Shown here piece after piece: positions 17,377-60,967 of a stretch of 64,000 bases of DNA; position 1 is the stretch's first letter, and the number at the start of each line of letters is the position of its first letter. Source of the DNA: Streptomyces seoulensis (GTDB taxonomy: Bacteria; Actinomycetota; Actinomycetes; Streptomycetales; Streptomycetaceae); the NCBI RefSeq assembly GCF_022846655.1, contig NZ_AP025667.1, positions 5,555,001-5,619,000 of the forward strand. The letters are read 5' to 3'. A program made the translations under genes and the position numbers. Under the pieces are notes generated by a model. The model ran no database searches, was not told where the DNA came from, and worked only from the letters and a program-made list of their open reading frames with translations.

Positions 17377-17385
17377 GGCCTTCAG

Positions 17386-17459
17386 TAGCGGGGACAGGAT
17401 TTGAACCTGCGACCTCTGGGTTATGAGCCCAGCGAGCTACCGAGCTGCTCCACCCCGCG
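17386..17459 (-). tRNA. tRNA-fMet (initiator), anticodon CAT, copy 1
   Basis: The 74-base gene begins CGCGGGGTGGAGCAGCTCGG on the minus strand. The acceptor stem has an unpaired C1-T72, and the anticodon stem has three G-C pairs (CTGGG/CCCAG). Both are hallmarks of the initiator tRNA. The T arm is GCAGG-TTCAAAT-CCTGT, the discriminator is A, and the 3' CCA is not encoded. It is identical to the copy at 19576-19649. Confidence 0.96.
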
Positions 17460-19568: not shown

Positions 19569-19575
19569 TTTTCAG

Positions 19576-19649
19576 TAGCGGGGACAGGATTTGAACCTGC
19601 GACCTCTGGGTTATGAGCCCAGCGAGCTACCGAGCTGCTCCACCCCGCG
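19576..19649 (-). tRNA. tRNA-fMet (initiator), anticodon CAT, copy 2
   Basis: This copy is base-for-base the same as 17386-17459 over all 74 positions, with the same C1-T72 mismatch and GGG/CCC anticodon stem. Each copy has its own terminator, and the flanks beyond a few bases are unrelated. Confidence 0.96.
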
Positions 19650-54959: not shown

Positions 54960-56138
54960 TCAGTACACCGGCTTGCTGGGTTCGATCTGGTTGACCCAGC
55001 CGATCACGCCGCCGCCCACGTGGACCGCGTCGGCGAAGCCCGCGGACTTCAGGACCGCCAGGACCTCCGCGCTACGGACGCCCGTCTTGCAGTGCAGGAC
55101 GATGCGCTTGTCGTGCGGGAGGGTCTCCAGGGCGGTGCCCATGAGGAACTCGTTCTTGGGGATCAGCTTGGCACCGGGGATGGAGACGATCTCGTACTCG
55201 TTCGGCTCGCGGACGTCGATGATCTCGATGTTCTCGCCGTCGTCGATCCACTCCTTGAGCTGCTTGGGAGTGATCGTGGAGCCGGCCGCGGCCTCCTGGG
55301 CCTCCTCGGAGACGACGCCGCAGAACGCCTCGTAGTCGATCAGCTCGGTGACCGTCGGGTTCTCGCCGCACACCGCGCAGTCCGGGTCCTTGCGGACCTT
55401 GACCTGGCGGTACTGCATCTCCAGGGCGTCGTAGATCATCAGGCGGCCGACCAGCGGGTCGCCGATGCCCGCCAGCAGCTTGATCGCCTCGTTGACCTGG
55501 ATCGAGCCGATCGACGCGCACAGCACGCCGAGCACGCCGCCCTCGGCGCAGGAGGGGACCATGCCGGGCGGCGGGGGCTCCGGGTAGAGGCAGCGGTAGC
55601 AGGGGCCGTGCTCGGACCAGAAGACGGACGCCTGGCCGTCGAAGCGGTAGATCGAGCCCCAGACGTACGGCTTGTTCAGCAGCACGCACGCGTCGTTGAC
55701 CAGGTAGCGCGTGGCGAAGTTGTCCGTGCCGTCGACGATCAGGTCGTACTGGCTGAAGATGTCCATCACGTTCTCGGCCTCGAGCCGTTCCCCGTGAAGG
55801 ACCACGTCCACGTACGGGTTGATGCCCTTGACCGTGTCCCGCGCGGACTCCGCCTTGGAGCGGCCGATGTCCGCCTGGCTGTGGATGATCTGCCGCTGCA
55901 GGTTGGACTCGTCGACCTCGTCGAACTCCACGATGCCGAGCGTGCCGACACCGGCCGCCGCGAGGTACATCAGCGCGGGCGAACCCAGGCCGCCGGCGCC
56001 CACACAGAGCACCTTGGCGTTCTTCAGCCGCTTCTGCCCTTCCATCCCGACATCCGGGATGATCAGGTGGCGGGAGTACCGGCGGACCTCGTCTACGGTG
56101 AGCTCGGAAGCGGGCTCGACCAGGGGTGGCAGCGACAC
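54960..56138 (-). CDS. moeZ: MoeZ, sulfur-carrier adenylyltransferase/sulfurtransferase
   Basis: The 392-residue protein joins a ThiF/MoeB adenylation domain to a rhodanese. The first has the nucleotide loop VGAGGLGSP, the zinc pairs Cys180/Cys183 and Cys254/Cys257, and DGTDNFATR. The rhodanese has catalytic Cys350 in HCKTGVRS. It activates and thiolates sulfur-carrier proteins (MoaD, ThiS and others). The GTG at 56138 with GGAG upstream gives VSLPPLVEPA, the family start. A sigma-R promoter lies at 56184-56210, linking sulfur trafficking to thiol stress. It works with MoaE of this window in molybdopterin synthesis. Confidence 0.95.
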   Translation of the reverse strand: MSLPPLVEPASELTVDEVRRYSRHLIIPDVGMEGQKRLKNAKVLCVGAGGLGSPALMYLAAAGVGTLGIVEFDEVDESNLQRQIIHSQADIGRSKAESARDTVKGINPYVDVVLHGERLEAENVMDIFSQYDLIVDGTDNFATRYLVNDACVLLNKPYVWGSIYRFDGQASVFWSEHGPCYRCLYPEPPPPGMVPSCAEGGVLGVLCASIGSIQVNEAIKLLAGIGDPLVGRLMIYDALEMQYRQVKVRKDPDCAVCGENPTVTELIDYEAFCGVVSEEAQEAAAGSTITPKQLKEWIDDGENIEIIDVREPNEYEIVSIPGAKLIPKNEFLMGTALETLPHDKRIVLHCKTGVRSAEVLAVLKSAGFADAVHVGGGVIGWVNQIEPSKPVY

Positions 56139-56183
56139 GGGAACTCCGTTGGTCGGTCGATCACTACGGGTTGTTCTCCCCGT

Positions 56184-56210
56184 AACACTGCCACGGCCTT
56201 CTTCATTCCG
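56184..56210 (-). promoter_or_regulatory. Sigma-R promoter of moeZ
   Basis: On the minus strand CGGAAT (56210-56205) is followed after exactly 18 bases by GTT (56186-56184). It overlaps the end of the upstream spherulin-4-like gene and lies about 45 bases before the moeZ start. Confidence 0.88.
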
Positions 56211-56952
56211 AGACACCCGTTCCGACCCGCGAGACGAATTCGTCCCAGTGGCCGGGCATGGTCTCCCACGGGTTGGCCCGGCCGCCCTGGTCCGTGCGGT
56301 CGGTGAGGTAGACCGTCCCGGCGCCCTGCCAGCGCGCGATGCGCAGCGCCTCCTCCAGATGGCCGCGCGGCACCCCGTGCACGAAGTGGCAGAAGCGGCT
56401 CTCCGGGTGGTCGGCGGTCCACTCGGCCACCTGCGACCAGCGGTAGTCGGACCAGGAGCCGCGGAAGGTCACCAACTGGTCGGCGTTCTCCGCGTACCCG
56501 GGACAGGGGTGCTCGCCGTGGCCGAGGACGACGTGGGTGTCCCCGGCGAGCGCGCGGAGCGTGGTGATCACACGGCGGACCTCGGGGAGCGCGGCCCGGT
56601 CGCCGGGACACCGCTCCAGCAGGAAGCCGTCGACGCGGTACCAGTCGAGATGGCGGTGCGCGTCGGAGACCAGGTCGGCGAAGGGGCGGATGCCGTGCGC
56701 GAGGTCCAGGTGTCCCAGGACGCGGACGCCGCCGTTGCGCAGCCGGCCCGCCGCTTCCAGGCAGTGCGGGTCGGGGCGGGTGCCGGGCCCGGCCGCCACG
56801 TTGAGCACCACCCAGTCCAACGGCGTTCCGGGACGGGCCAGTTCGGCCCACTGGGCGGGCGCGGTCAGCGGGTGGGCGTAGTCCGGGACGCCGATCGCGG
56901 TGCGTACGGCGGTGCCGGAGGGGGGCGCGGGGGCGGTGGTCAGATGCGGCAT
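56203..56952 (-). CDS. Spherulin-4-family (Sph3/GH135-like) protein
   Basis: The 249-residue protein matches the spherulation-specific family 4 fold: PDYAHPLTAPAQWAEL, VVLNVAAGPGTRP, VLGHLDLAHGIRPF, YRVDGFLLERCP and LVTFRGSWSDYRW. Family members such as fungal Sph3 cut galactosamine-containing exopolysaccharide. Here the usual catalytic FDE-type strand end reads LLER and the late Glu position reads TFRG, so activity may be altered. No signal peptide is visible, which is odd for a polysaccharide hydrolase. It overlaps the epimerase stop by 13 bases. Confidence 0.78.
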   Translation of the reverse strand: MPHLTTAPAPPSGTAVRTAIGVPDYAHPLTAPAQWAELARPGTPLDWVVLNVAAGPGTRPDPHCLEAAGRLRNGGVRVLGHLDLAHGIRPFADLVSDAHRHLDWYRVDGFLLERCPGDRAALPEVRRVITTLRALAGDTHVVLGHGEHPCPGYAENADQLVTFRGSWSDYRWSQVAEWTADHPESRFCHFVHGVPRGHLEEALRIARWQGAGTVYLTDRTDQGGRANPWETMPGHWDEFVSRVGTGVSE

Positions 56953-57899
56953 GCCGCCTCCATCCAGATGTCCGCCAGGGACTCCTCCAGGTTGATCCGG
57001 GGCCGCCAGCCGAGCCGGTCGCGGGCGGTGCGCACGTCGGCCTGCTGCCAGCTCCCGCACCCGTCCGGGTAGGGGTACGCGACCGGCACCGCGTGGTCCA
57101 TGTCGCCGCGCGGGTGCCCGATCGGACCGCGCAGCGGACCGGCCGGGGCGTCGAGTTCGTTGAGCGCGCCGCCGTACCCGGCGACACGGGCGAGGACGGT
57201 GGCTGCGTCCCGCAGGCGTACGGCGCGGCCGGAGCCGATGTTGATGACCCCCTGCGCGGCGGAGAGCGAGGCGGCGTGCACGGCTCTGGCCACGTCGCGC
57301 ACGTCGACGAAGTCGCGCTGTACGCCGAGCCCGGCGAGCTTGAGTTCGCCGTCGCCCGCCTGCATGGCGCGGCGCATCGCCTCGGCGAGCCTGCCCAGGG
57401 GCGACCCTGCCGGTGTGCCGGGTCCGGCGGGCGAGAAGACGCGCAGGACGACGGCGTCCAGGCCGGAGCCGAGGACCAGTTCGGTCGCGGCGAGCTTGCT
57501 GACCCCGTAGGGGCCGCCCGGACGGGGTACGGCGTCCTCGGCGGTGGAGGAGCCGGGCTGGCTGGGCCCGTACTCGGAGCCGCAGCCGATCTGCACCAGC
57601 CGGGCCCCGCAGCCGCTGCGGCGCAGAGCCTCGCAGACGGTGGCCACGGCGACGGTGTTGTGCCGGGTGAGGTCGCGGGCGCCGCCCCGGGTGGCACCCG
57701 CGCAGTTGACGACGACGCCGGGGTGCACGGCGTCCAGGAACCTCGTGAGCGCGCCGGGGCTGCCGGTGGCGAGGTCGAAGCGGACGTCGGCGTCGTCGCC
57801 CCGGCCGAGCGCGGTGAGCTGCACGGCCGGGTCGGCGAGGAGACGGTCGGCGACGAAGCGGCCGATGTATCCGTTGGCTCCGATCAGCAGAACCCTCAT
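56940..57899 (-). CDS. NAD-dependent sugar epimerase/dehydratase
   Basis: The 319-residue extended SDR has the nucleotide site VLLIGANGYIGRFV (GxxGxxG), the catalytic PYGVSKLAATE (YxxxK), a GCGSEYG segment, and DFVDVRDVARAV near the sugar-binding half. The family interconverts or dehydrates nucleotide sugars; which one is not clear. The ATG at 57899 overlaps the stop of a 27-codon ORF, and its own GGGAG lies inside that ORF. Together with the PelF-like gene it suggests sugar supply for a polymer. Confidence 0.88.
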   Translation of the reverse strand: MRVLLIGANGYIGRFVADRLLADPAVQLTALGRGDDADVRFDLATGSPGALTRFLDAVHPGVVVNCAGATRGGARDLTRHNTVAVATVCEALRRSGCGARLVQIGCGSEYGPSQPGSSTAEDAVPRPGGPYGVSKLAATELVLGSGLDAVVLRVFSPAGPGTPAGSPLGRLAEAMRRAMQAGDGELKLAGLGVQRDFVDVRDVARAVHAASLSAAQGVINIGSGRAVRLRDAATVLARVAGYGGALNELDAPAGPLRGPIGHPRGDMDHAVPVAYPYPDGCGSWQQADVRTARDRLGWRPRINLEESLADIWMEAACRI

Positions 57900-57979
57900 A
57901 GGGCGGCTCCCGGAGTGTGCGCCGCGACTGCTCCCACGGACCCGGCCACTGCGGTGACTCCGTGTCGGGAGGTGGTCAT
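57896..57979 (-). CDS. 27-codon ORF coupled to the epimerase gene
   Basis: An ATG at 57979 with the strong ribosome site AAGGAGA opens a 27-codon frame (MTTSRHGVTAVAGSVGAVAA and seven more residues). Its TGA overlaps the epimerase ATG. The peptide is rich in Ala, Val, Gly and Thr and has no Cys. It may be a coupling leader or a small protein. The ribosome site and the coupling are the only evidence. Confidence 0.55.
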   Translation of the reverse strand: MTTSRHGVTAVAGSVGAVAAHTPGAAL

Positions 57980-58106
57980 CTGGTGTTCTCCTTCTCAGGG
58001 ATGAAGGGGGAGAGGACGTGGGGGCGGTGGGGCGCCGGTGCGATGGGGAGAGCTCGGGGAGCGTCGCGCGCGTGGCGCGGGCCACCGGGGACGCCTGCGG
58101 GAAGGC

Positions 58107-59288
58107 TCACTCCGGGGCTCCCGCGGGGGCGTGGGCCGAGGCTCGGGTGAGGGTGCGCAGGGCGTGGGTCAGGAGGGCCAGGGCCGCGAATCCGCAGGTG
58201 AGAGCGGGGATCGCGGCCGGGCCCAGGGGGTCGGTCAGGGTCGTCACGGGGACGGCGAGGAAGCCGCAGTCGGGGAGGCGTCCGCTCAGGACCAGTGCGG
58301 GCGCGGCCAGTTCGGCGGCCGCCGCCGCGCCCAGGACCACGGCCGGTGCGTGCCGGTGCCGGTGGACGGTGAGGAGGCGGGCGAGGAACAGCAGGGCACC
58401 CAGGGTGAGGGCCTGCGGGTAGGCGGGGTCCTCGTCCAGTACGGCGCCGGTCAGCGCGAGCAGGCCGGTCAGGGCGGCCAGGTGGAGGGCGAGGACGCCG
58501 AGCAGCAGGGGGCGCGCGCCGGAGGTGAAGTCCTCCAGGCCCCGGCTGCCCGCGAGCCGGCGGCGGGCGCCGAGGTCGAGAAGGTGGGCGCACCAGGCGG
58601 CGGGGGCGCAGGACAGCGCGAGGGCCAGGGCCGGCGCGGTGGCGACGGGCCAGGGGCCGTCCGGTGCGCCGGTGGGCAGCGTGTCGGGGCCGCCGCTCAC
58701 CACGGCGTCCAGCAGGCCGTCCCCGAGGAGGACGTAGCCGAGCAGGCAGGCGGTCCAGACGGCGGCGGAGGGCCGCGGGGCCGCGCCGGGGCGGGCCGCG
58801 AGGGGGCCCCGGCCGAGGGCGGCGCGTAAGGCGAGGGCGAGGGCGAGCAGTCCGCCGAGGGCCACCAGGGGGCGGGCATGGCCGTGGCTGAACCGCAGGC
58901 CCACCACGGTGCCCGAGGCGACCGCTCCGGGCAGCAGGGTGAGCAGGACCCACCCGGCGCGGATACGGGGGCCGGGCCCCGGCGCGGGCTCGGGGGACGG
59001 GTCCGCGTCGCGGGGCACACGGGCGTACAGCTCCTCGGCGAGCGAGAACACGTCGCGGTGCCGGTACCGGGCGGCCGAGCGGTCGGTGAACCCGTGCGCC
59101 TCCAGTCCGGCAGCGATCTCCAGGGGGTCCACGGCCCGTTCGCACAGCTCCCGGTGCTGGTGCAGCAGCGCCTTCACGGGGTCGACGGCACCCCTGCGGG
59201 GGGCACTGCTCCGGGTGTCGGCCTCGGGGGTCCCGTCGGCGTCGGACGCGGCGACGGTTCCCGGACCGGTTCTCTCCACGCCCTTCAT
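58107..59288 (-). CDS. Polytopic membrane protein of the Pel-like locus
   Basis: The 393-residue protein has a soluble, charged N-terminal part (about 1-110: ALLHQHRELCERAVDPLEIAAG and SLAEELYARVP) and then about eight hydrophobic segments from 112 to 385. No family was recognised with confidence. Its ATG overlaps the stop of the PelF-like gene (ATGA), so the two are made together. Position and topology suggest a membrane partner for polysaccharide synthesis or export (an analogue of PelE or PelG), which is inference. Confidence 0.75.
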   Translation of the reverse strand: MKGVERTGPGTVAASDADGTPEADTRSSAPRRGAVDPVKALLHQHRELCERAVDPLEIAAGLEAHGFTDRSAARYRHRDVFSLAEELYARVPRDADPSPEPAPGPGPRIRAGWVLLTLLPGAVASGTVVGLRFSHGHARPLVALGGLLALALALRAALGRGPLAARPGAAPRPSAAVWTACLLGYVLLGDGLLDAVVSGGPDTLPTGAPDGPWPVATAPALALALSCAPAAWCAHLLDLGARRRLAGSRGLEDFTSGARPLLLGVLALHLAALTGLLALTGAVLDEDPAYPQALTLGALLFLARLLTVHRHRHAPAVVLGAAAAAELAAPALVLSGRLPDCGFLAVPVTTLTDPLGPAAIPALTCGFAALALLTHALRTLTRASAHAPAGAPE

Positions 59289-60967
59289 CGCGCCCCCTCC
59301 GCGCTCGCGCGGACCGGTGCCGGTGAGCCCCGGCCGCGCAGGAGGGTGCGGGCCGCGGGGACGGTCCAGCCGCCGGGGACATGGGCCTCGGCCGGGACGG
59401 CGAACGGCAGCGGCCCGCCGGTCTCGTCGACGGCGACCCTCCGCACCGGGCAGTGCGACATGATCTCCAGGTAAATGCCGTGAAATGCCGCGATGTTCTG
59501 TTCGACGCCGAACAGCTCCAGCGCACGGGCTCGCGCCGCCGCCCCCAGGCGTGCCCGGCGCTCGGGGTCGCGCAGCAGCGCCACGCACGCCTCGGCGAGC
59601 GCCCGCGGATTGCGCGGCGGTACGACGAGCCCGGTGCCCCCGATGACCTCGACCACCGCGCCCACGTCCGTGGACACCGTGGCCCGCCCGCAGAACATGG
59701 CCTCGGCCAGGCTGACCGGGAACCCCTCGACCACGCTGGAGAGGACCACGACGGCCCCCGCGGCGTACGCGTCGGGCAGCGTCGGCGCCTCGGGCGCCCC
59801 CACCTCGGTGAACGCCACCGGGTTGTCCCCGACGGCGTGCAGCCCCTCGGCCTCGTCCGGGAAGAGCTGGGCGGCCAGCGCCCGGCACTGCGCGAGGTAC
59901 GCCTCCCCCTCGGCCCCCACCGGCACGCCCACGATGCGCAGCCGTGCGTGCGGCTCCTCCTTGCGGACCTCGGTGAAGGCGTGCAGCAGGGAGACCAGGT
60001 CGCGGGCGGGCTCGATCCGGCCCACCCACACCAGGGTGTCCGCGTCGGCGCGGTCGGGCGCCTCGCCGACCTCGGCGAAGCGGTCGGCGTCCATGCCCGG
60101 GTGGACGGTGCGGATGCGGGCGCGGTCGGCGCCGCACCGCTCCTGCCAGCGGCGGGCGTGGGTGCTGCCGGGGGTGAGGATCTCGGCGCGCCGGTAGACC
60201 TCGGCGGCGAGCCGCCCGTGGAAGGCGGCGAGCAGCGCGCGTACGGCGGGGGCGGCGGTGTCGGGGCCGAGCGCGAGGTAGTGCGCGCGCAGTTGGACGC
60301 CGTACTCGGTGACCAGCAGGGGCACACCGGCGAAGTGCCGGGCGAGCAGGCCGGGCAGCGCGGTGGAGCCGCCGGAGGTGGCGTGGCAGAGGTCGACGGC
60401 GGCGAGGGCGTCCTCGCCGTACCAGTCGAGGGAGAGGGGGAGCAGGGCGCGGGCGAGGTGATCGGTGACGGCCAGCAGGTCGGGCACGCGGGCCTCGCGC
60501 GCCGTGCGCGGGGCGCCGGGGGCGCGGCAGGCGCGCTCCAGGGCGCTGACGGCGTGGTCGGAGCGGAGCGCTCCGGTCAGGGCGCCGGTCTCGCGGGCGA
60601 GTTCGGCGAGGTTGTACAGCGCGTTGCCGAAACGGTCCGCCACTTCGGCGCAGGGGTCCTCCGGGGAGGGGCCGGCCGGGGCGCAGACCGCGCCGAGCAG
60701 CTCGCCGTAGTGCTCGGCGAACCGCTTGCGGGCGCGGCGGCCCGGCGTGGCGCGGTCGCCCCCTTCCGTCCACGACGGAGCGGTCCGTACCCGCCTGACC
60801 TGCGGCGGGAGCGGCACCCAGCCGTCGTCCTCCTGCTGTCTGCCGCACTTGAGCGCGTAGACGTCGAACTCGTGCTGCCCGAGCCCGCGCACGAGCCGGT
60901 CGCACCAGAGCCCGGTGTCACCGCCGACATACGGATAGCCACCCTCGGTAAGCAGTCCGATGCGCAC
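59285..60967 (-). CDS. PelF-like GT4 glycosyltransferase
   Basis: The 560-residue protein opens VRIGLLTEGGYPYVGGDTGL, the DUF3492/PelF N-terminal signature, and has a GT-B nucleotide-sugar site at the C-terminal half. There GMDADRF, ADTLVWVGRIEPARDLVSLL, SSVVEGFPVSLAEAM and VVPPRNPRALAEACVAL are seen. PelF polymerises the cationic Pel exopolysaccharide from UDP-N-acetylhexosamine in the cytoplasm. The GTG at 60967 was chosen because the signature starts there. It is the first gene of the operon running to the epimerase and spherulin-4-like genes. Confidence 0.88.
   Translation of the reverse strand: MRIGLLTEGGYPYVGGDTGLWCDRLVRGLGQHEFDVYALKCGRQQEDDGWVPLPPQVRRVRTAPSWTEGGDRATPGRRARKRFAEHYGELLGAVCAPAGPSPEDPCAEVADRFGNALYNLAELARETGALTGALRSDHAVSALERACRAPGAPRTAREARVPDLLAVTDHLARALLPLSLDWYGEDALAAVDLCHATSGGSTALPGLLARHFAGVPLLVTEYGVQLRAHYLALGPDTAAPAVRALLAAFHGRLAAEVYRRAEILTPGSTHARRWQERCGADRARIRTVHPGMDADRFAEVGEAPDRADADTLVWVGRIEPARDLVSLLHAFTEVRKEEPHARLRIVGVPVGAEGEAYLAQCRALAAQLFPDEAEGLHAVGDNPVAFTEVGAPEAPTLPDAYAAGAVVVLSSVVEGFPVSLAEAMFCGRATVSTDVGAVVEVIGGTGLVVPPRNPRALAEACVALLRDPERRARLGAAARARALELFGVEQNIAAFHGIYLEIMSHCPVRRVAVDETGGPLPFAVPAEAHVPGGWTVPAARTLLRGRGSPAPVRASAEGAR

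Follow-up and report, generated by a model that had tools for sequence, protein, structure and literature searches.

A moeZ-linked glycosyltransferase locus of Streptomyces with kinship to galactosaminogalactan-like operons

The closest described relatives of the Streptomyces locus reported here are exopolysaccharide systems, namely bacterial galactosaminogalactan (GAG)-like operons that carry agd3, the Pel operons of Gram-positive bacteria and the fungal GAG cluster, to which uge3 belongs. Further cell-envelope glycan genes of Streptomyces, matAB and cslA/glxA (SCO2836/2837), encode glycosyltransferases of families different from the one considered here and form unrelated loci. Our locus consists of four genes, all open reading frames (ORFs) of the minus strand within positions 56203-60967 of a 64,000-nucleotide stretch of Streptomyces seoulensis DNA (the window; contig NZ_AP025667.1, positions 5,555,001 to 5,619,000), in a genome of 6.54 Mb assembled as a single contig. 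In transcriptional order, the genes are:

59285..60967, minus strand: PelF-like GT4 glycosyltransferase (GT) with a DUF3492 N-terminal domain, 560 aa, GTG start (PF11997 110 bits, PF13692 86 bits)
58107..59288, minus strand: polytopic membrane protein (MEM) with a conserved N-terminal segment, 393 aa (8 predicted helices, no Pfam match)
56940..57899, minus strand: extended short-chain dehydrogenase/reductase (SDR) of the NAD-dependent epimerase/dehydratase family, 319 aa (PF01370 126 bits; best PDB sequence match 2pk3)
56203..56952, minus strand: spherulin-4 protein (SPH; PF12138, GH135-like), 249 aa (PF12138 76 bits)

A 27-codon ORF lies between MEM and SDR, and SPH is followed on the same strand by moeZ, which is given as downstream context and is not counted among the genes of the system:

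54960..56216, minus strand: moeZ (ThiF + rhodanese; PF00899 283 bits, PF00581 60 bits)

Bacterial agd3 operons are reported to combine a GT, a multi-spanning membrane protein and a GH114 protein, with spherulin-4 in some Actinobacteria (Bamford et al. 2020, PMC7229062). The window locus resembles them in its cytoplasmic GT, multi-spanning membrane protein and spherulin-4 protein but has neither agd3 nor GH114, its MEM is short, and residues of its GT, SPH and SDR are changed. With the Gram-positive Pel operon pelDEA(DA)FG (Whitfield et al. 2020, PMC7112168), it shares a DUF3492 GT4 enzyme of the PelF kind but lacks PelG. With the fungal GAG cluster (Gtb3, Sph3, Ega3 and Agd3; PMC12054363, PMC7229062), it shares a protein of the spherulin-4/GH135 family, whereas a GT4 enzyme and MEM stand in place of Gtb3, and its SPH lacks Glu222 and shows no N-terminal hydrophobic stretch or signal by eye. 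The comparisons below give good support to the view that actinobacterial GAG-like exopolysaccharide operons include a moeZ-linked clade and that the locus represents this clade in Streptomyces. Relatives of the four genes are probably used by other bacteria to make a sticky biofilm sugar.

A scan of genome contigs with the GT as query yielded 327 loci, of which the best 80 (79 titled Streptomyces and one Kitasatospora) were fetched, a sample biased to close relatives by its choice of the best GT matches. All four genes occur in conserved order and on one strand in 76 of the 80, the remaining four (L067, L089, L099 and L105) being left out because they run off contig ends. The arrangement put forward in a preliminary description of the window, with a PelF-like transferase, a membrane protein, an epimerase and a spherulin-4 protein on one strand, is thus confirmed, and its sharing by these 76 loci and the window rules out a chance grouping. 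Together, the window and the 76 intact loci form the set of 77 to which the counts below refer. Among the best 80 of 327, the nearest named loci by GT identity are those of S. bauhiniae (92%) and S. griseoluteus (90%). A moeZ match lies downstream in every fetched and outlying locus (see below) of sufficient length. GT and MEM share 4 bp at the GT stop and the MEM ATG, with the MEM start at the same place in 73 of 77 loci, and SPH overlaps the 3' end of SDR by 13 bp in 76 of 77 (L048 differs). No internal stop was found in any of the four genes across the 77 loci. Median Ka/Ks over 402 sampled pairs, from a simple Nei-Gojobori estimate on GC-rich DNA, is 0.08 for SDR, 0.26 for GT, 0.29 for SPH and 0.44 for MEM, compared with 0.135 for moeZ (242 pairs); the fraction of positions at least 97% identical across the loci is 86% in SDR, 47% in GT, 43% in SPH and 23% in MEM. 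GT, SPH and MEM are therefore under purifying selection, and the low medians together with the open frames argue against neutral decay.

The designations A, B, A2, A3 and X for lineages are our own. Lineage B comprises the other loci that pair relatives of SPH and GT, in Streptomycetaceae and other actinobacterial families. Its fullest members have the order 750-850 aa protein, GT, MEM, a 330-aa SDR (SDR330), nucleotidyltransferase, SDR, SPH and GH114, and the remaining ones are without some of these genes; ORF starts were taken from our own ORF caller, and some are uncertain. Identity to the window proteins is 38-45% for GT (17 loci), 26-47% for SPH (13) and 42-46% for SDR (6), and profile comparison of MEM with the lineage-B MEMs by hhalign (Prob 99.5 and 99.7) indicates clear homology, so that the window locus has the homologous GT, MEM, SDR and spherulin-4 by which a GAG-like operon is recognised. 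The large lineage-B protein matches the Agd3 family PF25115 weakly (E=0.06 in L123, 0.0011 in L135) and shares 26% identity (E ~1e-34) with a protein that occurs in true Pel loci and scores 94 bits for PF25115. In complete clusters, SDR330 is closest to GalE/dehydratase-type enzymes and distinct from the SDR that resembles the window's. Lineage-B loci fit the published description of agd3 GAG-like operons, and this lineage is already known (PMC7229062). The stripped moeZ-linked lineage was not met in the open-access literature searched, which does not amount to showing its absence in print.

A link between the two lineages is provided by L153, one of 23 outlying moeZ-linked loci (L149-L171; 8 from outlying Streptomyces and 15 from other genera) that were hand-picked for diversity and are biased in that respect. 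In this locus, from another genus of the same family, a complete set lies ~2.4 kb from moeZ, separated from it by one predicted ORF on the opposite strand, in the order Agd3-like, GT, MEM, SDR330, nucleotidyltransferase, SDR, SPH and GH114, and with the key residues intact; its large protein has no PF25115 match in the Pfam search. A GT tree was built from 41 rows, 14 taken from the 77 loci and 27 from elsewhere. In it, L153 groups with all stripped moeZ-linked GTs (99/96), within which group the stripped ones stand by themselves (100/98), and 15 of the 17 lineage-B rows form the sister clade (100/99). In an SDR tree of 43 rows, L153 is likewise basal in the moeZ-linked clade (100/100). Given this placement and the complete cluster near moeZ, descent of the window lineage from a full operon that stood at this site is the simplest account.

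Each of the three enzymes retained in the window departs from the relatives at a key position. The sites concerned are:

60911..60922, minus strand: GT residues 16-19, GDTG in place of GGVS (alignment of the 77 loci)
59702..59728, minus strand: GT E-x7-E motif (E414, E422), retained, with Glu at both positions in 77/77
57582..57584, minus strand: SDR Cys106 at the catalytic Ser position; Cys in 77/77, Ser in 11/11 lineage-B SDRs
56461..56463, minus strand: SPH Arg164 at the Sph3 catalytic Glu222 position; Glu in 0/77 loci and in 13/13 of lineage B

In GT4 enzymes, the GGVS-type loop binds the phosphate of the donor or acceptor. It is invariant in the 17 lineage-B GTs, in two true PelF proteins and in L153; throughout the 77 loci, it reads G-[DE]-x-x, with Asp (60) or Glu (17) at residue 17, and a pattern search of the outlying moeZ-linked GTs found GGVS in L153 alone (18 of 22 read; L150, L163, L165 and L168 unread). 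The window GT nevertheless has the E-x7-E motif of GT4 enzymes, and R317 is kept in 76 of the 77 and Lys322 in 74. Four moeZ-linked GTs of genus g14 (L154-L157) have lost the Glu pair of E-x7-E while their frames stay open and are candidate pseudo-glycosyltransferases; at another site, their genomes also encode a GT that is more PelF-like, and in the three of the four genomes whose SPH position is listed, an SPH match lies a few kilobases from it.

Serine at the Cys106-equivalent position, four residues before the Tyr of EYG, is catalytic in GalE-type SDRs, and 2pk3 has Ser there too. The three Gly of GxxGxxG, Tyr131 and Lys135 are present in all 77 SDRs, leaving the Ser/Tyr/Lys triad incomplete at Cys106. 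Of the 23 outlying loci, 16 have Cys at the same position and 7 (L152-L157 and L165) have Ser, and the SDR tree accounts for the replacement by one change (Cys clade 96/78); the 11 lineage-B SDRs include L137, which has no other recognised cluster gene nearby and was omitted from the tree. The closest solved chain by sequence is a GDP-6-deoxy-lyxo-4-hexulose reductase (2pk3), and SDR330 appears more GalE-like. The preliminary description named as refuting its proposal an epimerase unrelated to UDP-hexosamine, and such unrelatedness is thus favoured, short of proof.

A profile of 13 SPH relatives matches Sph3 (5c5g) with E=4.9e-26 and aligns Sph3 Asp166 and Glu222 with SPH residues 113 and 164. 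The window protein has Glu at the first position and Arg at the second, so that the Sph3 catalytic pair is missing. The Asp166 equivalent is found in 63 of 77 loci and in 13/13 of lineage B; in 120 database homologues, partly the same proteins as the 77, Asp occurs in 98 and Glu in none; and Glu at the 222 position is seen in two of 13 outlying SPHs (L153 and L165). One report prints the Sph3 catalytic residues as Asp196/Glu222 (PMC12054363), and in another the D166A variant is inactive (PMC8546845). On the residue at the Glu222 position, we reject the reading of SPH as an active GH135 hydrolase.

Gene content across the family points to SDR as the constant part, which is present in all 23 outlying loci. 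Searched against 150 Streptomycetaceae genomes, it matched 141, once each, at E <=1e-60; the nine others are seven of genera g2 and g5, G074 (76% complete) and G075. SPH matched 118 of the 150 at 1e-10, lineage B included, and at class level 43 of 394 genomes (1e-8), 38 of which are the own genome or the same genus. Genes for the Agd3-like protein, nucleotidyltransferase, SDR330 and GH114 occur among the outlying loci in L153 only, and L165 retains both the SDR Ser and the SPH Glu. The window locus lacks the deacetylase, GH114 and the sugar-supply genes. No Agd3 match was found in the window genome by a search that was positive in 7 of 12 genomes, including the query's own, and the sole GH114 match of the genome (G000:C1:3672063; endo-galactosaminidase family, of the kind found in PelA) is unlinked, 1.9 Mb away. 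This gene corresponds to L148 7914-8744, where the other ORFs called in the surrounding 16 kb have no match to a cluster protein. The two lineages can coexist, as in the Streptomyces genomes G080 and G113, which hold a stripped moeZ-linked GT and, elsewhere, an Agd3 match with lineage-B genes.

Kinship with GAG operons does not extend to Pel. With 99.7 bits against the NCBIfam PelF model, the GT of the window narrowly misses the cut-off of 100, compared with 507 bits in L146 and 490 in L147 for two true PelF proteins from the phylum, the control locus L146 also having a PelG of 464 bits; four lineage-B GTs exceed the cut-off (149-176) with no PelG partner seen. No PelG (PF16933) was found at the window locus, and Pfam searches detected no PelD, PelE or PelA among the four genes and two neighbours, PelD and PelE not having been searched genome-wide. 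The genome has one PelG-family match, which at 28-29 bits just reaches the cut-off of 29, 3.6 Mb away; this marginal match (G000:C1:1986011-1986382, L112) lies inside a long open frame. A canonical Pel locus is rejected on the missing PelG and the PelF score just under the cut-off. Of the "stripped Pel or galactosaminogalactan" system first proposed, the stripped state and the GAG kinship are borne out by the lineage-B operons and L153, and the Pel part is not. In L146 (9321-15976) and L147, from another class of the phylum, an Agd3-like deacetylase gene follows pelG directly and a spherulin-4 gene is nearby, so that the gene sets of Pel and GAG meet at a single locus.

A plain Kyte-Doolittle hydropathy scan predicts 8 helices in 56 of 77 MEMs, including that of the window (range 6-9), 9-12 in lineage B (10 loci) and 11 in L153. 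Among outlying moeZ-linked MEMs, it gives 5-6 in L159, L161, L162 and L167 and none in L168, with doubt there about the frame or the start. Neither MEM-A nor MEM-B matched a PelG profile in hhalign (Prob <1; the profile held two sequences only), so that a role of MEM as a PelG-like flippase finds no sequence support within the reach of so small a profile. A MEM-SPH fusion (P0294) was set aside because its sequence appears frame-shifted.

The short ORF upstream of SDR is itself conserved:

57896..57979, minus strand: 27-codon leader ORF MTTSRHGVTAVAGSVGAVAAHTPGAAL, with AAGGAG upstream and its TGA overlapping the SDR ATG (ATGA)

In 74 of 77 loci, an ATG-started ORF of 13 to 63 codons has its end across the start of SDR, with the frame kept and frequently with the N-terminus M[TI]TSR. 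Leader ATGs preceded by a Shine-Dalgarno sequence number 75 in this frame and 2 in another, with none in three loci, and span 22 distances, 20 of them in the leader frame. The ORF recurs in 7 of the 23 outlying loci and is absent from L153. It possibly serves translational coupling or encodes a small peptide. Elsewhere in the window, two tRNA-Met genes (17385-17459 and 19575-19649, minus strand) lie ~2.1 kb apart.

In S. coelicolor, the counterparts should be SCO5174 (GT), SCO5175 (MEM), SCO5176 (SDR) and SCO5177 (SPH), as mapped from the identity of SCO5178 with moeB, the gene names and the gene order. SCO5178 is described as moeB/sulfurylase (PMC4340878) and SCO5174 as a transferase or glycosyl-transferase (PMC3610822, PMC6585502). 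In the second compared with the first mycelium, at 24, 48 and 72 h, transcripts are up by log2 2.2-2.6 for SCO5174, 3.3-3.8 for SCO5175 and 3.0-3.5 for SCO5177, two of the three being labelled hypothetical in the table (PMC3610822). Disruption of SCO5174, as of cslA and glxA, is listed as lowering actinorhodin (PMC6585502). SCO5178, the moeZ orthologue, is itself listed as a target of NdgR by chromatin immunoprecipitation (PMC4340878), and moeZ may have its own promoter.

We favour the reading that the locus encodes a retuned membrane glycosyltransferase complex with SDR as its core, and not a maker of Pel or GAG, and put its chances at about even, an estimate that blends a well-supported origin with a less certain mechanism. 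It draws on gene content, residue changes, tree positions and selection, along with the published expression data and mutant phenotype. We rank it ahead of, in this order, a pseudoenzyme complex, a role for SDR alone, a Pel- or GAG-type synthase and a neutral remnant; the gradings are judgements and not computed odds, and because the readings share an origin they add up to more than certainty. Several observations weigh against the favoured reading. The GT, its GG loop broken in 77/77, may be catalytically inactive to judge from its sequence; the window itself has Arg at position 322; and both Glu of E-x7-E are changed in all four GTs of group A3 (genus g14). SPH is absent from 10 of the 23 outlying loci (L154-L160 and L168-L170), and GT and MEM are absent from L152, losses which imply that no fixed four-protein complex is required. 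G008 and G022, both draft assemblies, match SDR and have no SPH and no GT match better than 2e-16. In the trees, the lineage-B GTs L133 and L135 fall on long branches apart from the clade of their lineage, L135 being flagged as meeting the long Pel branch, and the inner SDR forks between L153, L152 and A3 are weak (91/85, 81/48). As for the published data, SCO5176 was not found in the text of PMC3610822 or in the part of its expression table consulted, insertions in the first gene may affect those behind it through polarity, and neither the expression nor the mutant data identify a product.

The active-site changes in all three enzymes would also follow if GT and SPH had become non-catalytic and SDR, GT, MEM and SPH together formed a membrane regulator or scaffold, perhaps read out through SDR (NAD or nucleotide-sugar binding, Cys106). 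The A3 GTs, which lost E-x7-E with the frame open in 4/4, and the position of SDR as the most constrained and most widely kept component fit such a scaffold; drift would not, however, preserve E-x7-E in every locus of the set and R317 in all but one, and the presence of Tyr131 and Lys135 in all 77 SDRs likewise speaks against it, so that we regard it as rather unlikely, at perhaps one chance in four. Slightly less probable again is that SDR gained a house-keeping role and that GT, MEM and SPH are passengers lost one by one. The single SDR match in nearly every family genome, its presence in every outlying locus, including the 10 without SPH and the one without GT and MEM, and its Ka/Ks below that of moeZ agree with this, against which stand the purifying selection on the other three genes, the conserved overlapping gene starts and the printed phenotype of the GT mutant (PMC6585502). 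We are a shade more doubtful still of a view along the lines of the preliminary description, a reduced working synthase of the Pel/GAG type in which GT would assemble an amino-sugar polymer for export by MEM, SDR would make the donor and SPH would trim the product. All four proteins are homologous to members of GAG-like operons, E-x7-E, R317 and K322 are largely kept, the genes are up in the second mycelium (PMC3610822), and an unlinked GH114 and the marginal PelG-family match exist elsewhere in the genome. Yet GGVS, the Sph3-type Glu and the SDR Ser are each lost or replaced in 77/77 and the locus has no genes for extracellular processing, which weakens the earlier suggestion of an undescribed amino-sugar polymer; the genome has no deacetylase match, and MEM has no PelG match and falls ~2-4 predicted helices short of most MEMs in lineage B. 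That the locus is a functionless neutral remnant of an old operon is, finally, very improbable: the series of gene losses across genera would suit it, but the stop-free frames, Ka/Ks medians well below 1 in all four genes and the developmental induction of three of them (PMC3610822) do not.

For the favoured retuned complex, the presumed ancestor would have had the L153-type arrangement, from Agd3-like through GH114, ~2.4 kb from moeZ. On the branch leading towards Streptomyces, four genes (deacetylase, GH114, nucleotidyltransferase and SDR330) would then have disappeared from the locus, MEM would have become shorter, and a key residue or motif would have changed in each of the three remaining enzymes. 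The retention of the genes despite lost processing genes and altered active sites suggests a new job rather than decay. MEM may anchor the cytoplasmic GT, which would have retained its C-terminal nucleotide-sugar machinery with a changed N-terminal loop; since E-x7-E, R317 and K322 are kept but the loop is not, we infer that GT probably still transfers sugar, with a new acceptor or donor. SDR, the conserved core, would supply or sense a nucleotide sugar, and SPH, presumably no longer a hydrolase, may serve as a glycan-binding subunit. The most likely product would be a short glycolipid or glycoconjugate of the second, antibiotic-producing, sporulating mycelium, and not an exported polycationic polymer of the Pel or GAG kind. 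A bolder version, which we hold to be improbable, at about the level of the role for SDR alone, is that a whole biofilm operon was converted beside moeZ into a developmental module making no polymer, in which GT and SPH bind a nucleotide sugar or glycan and the near-universal Cys-SDR senses the redox or nucleotide-sugar state, feeding into second-mycelium development and antibiotics.

SDR is near-universal in Streptomycetaceae (141/150), yet the genes of the locus are in part annotated as hypothetical. L153, L165, L152, A3 and Streptomyces together look like successive stages in the conversion of a polysaccharide operon to another use, and this series lets one ask which catalytic residues still matter and whether the product is a glycan.

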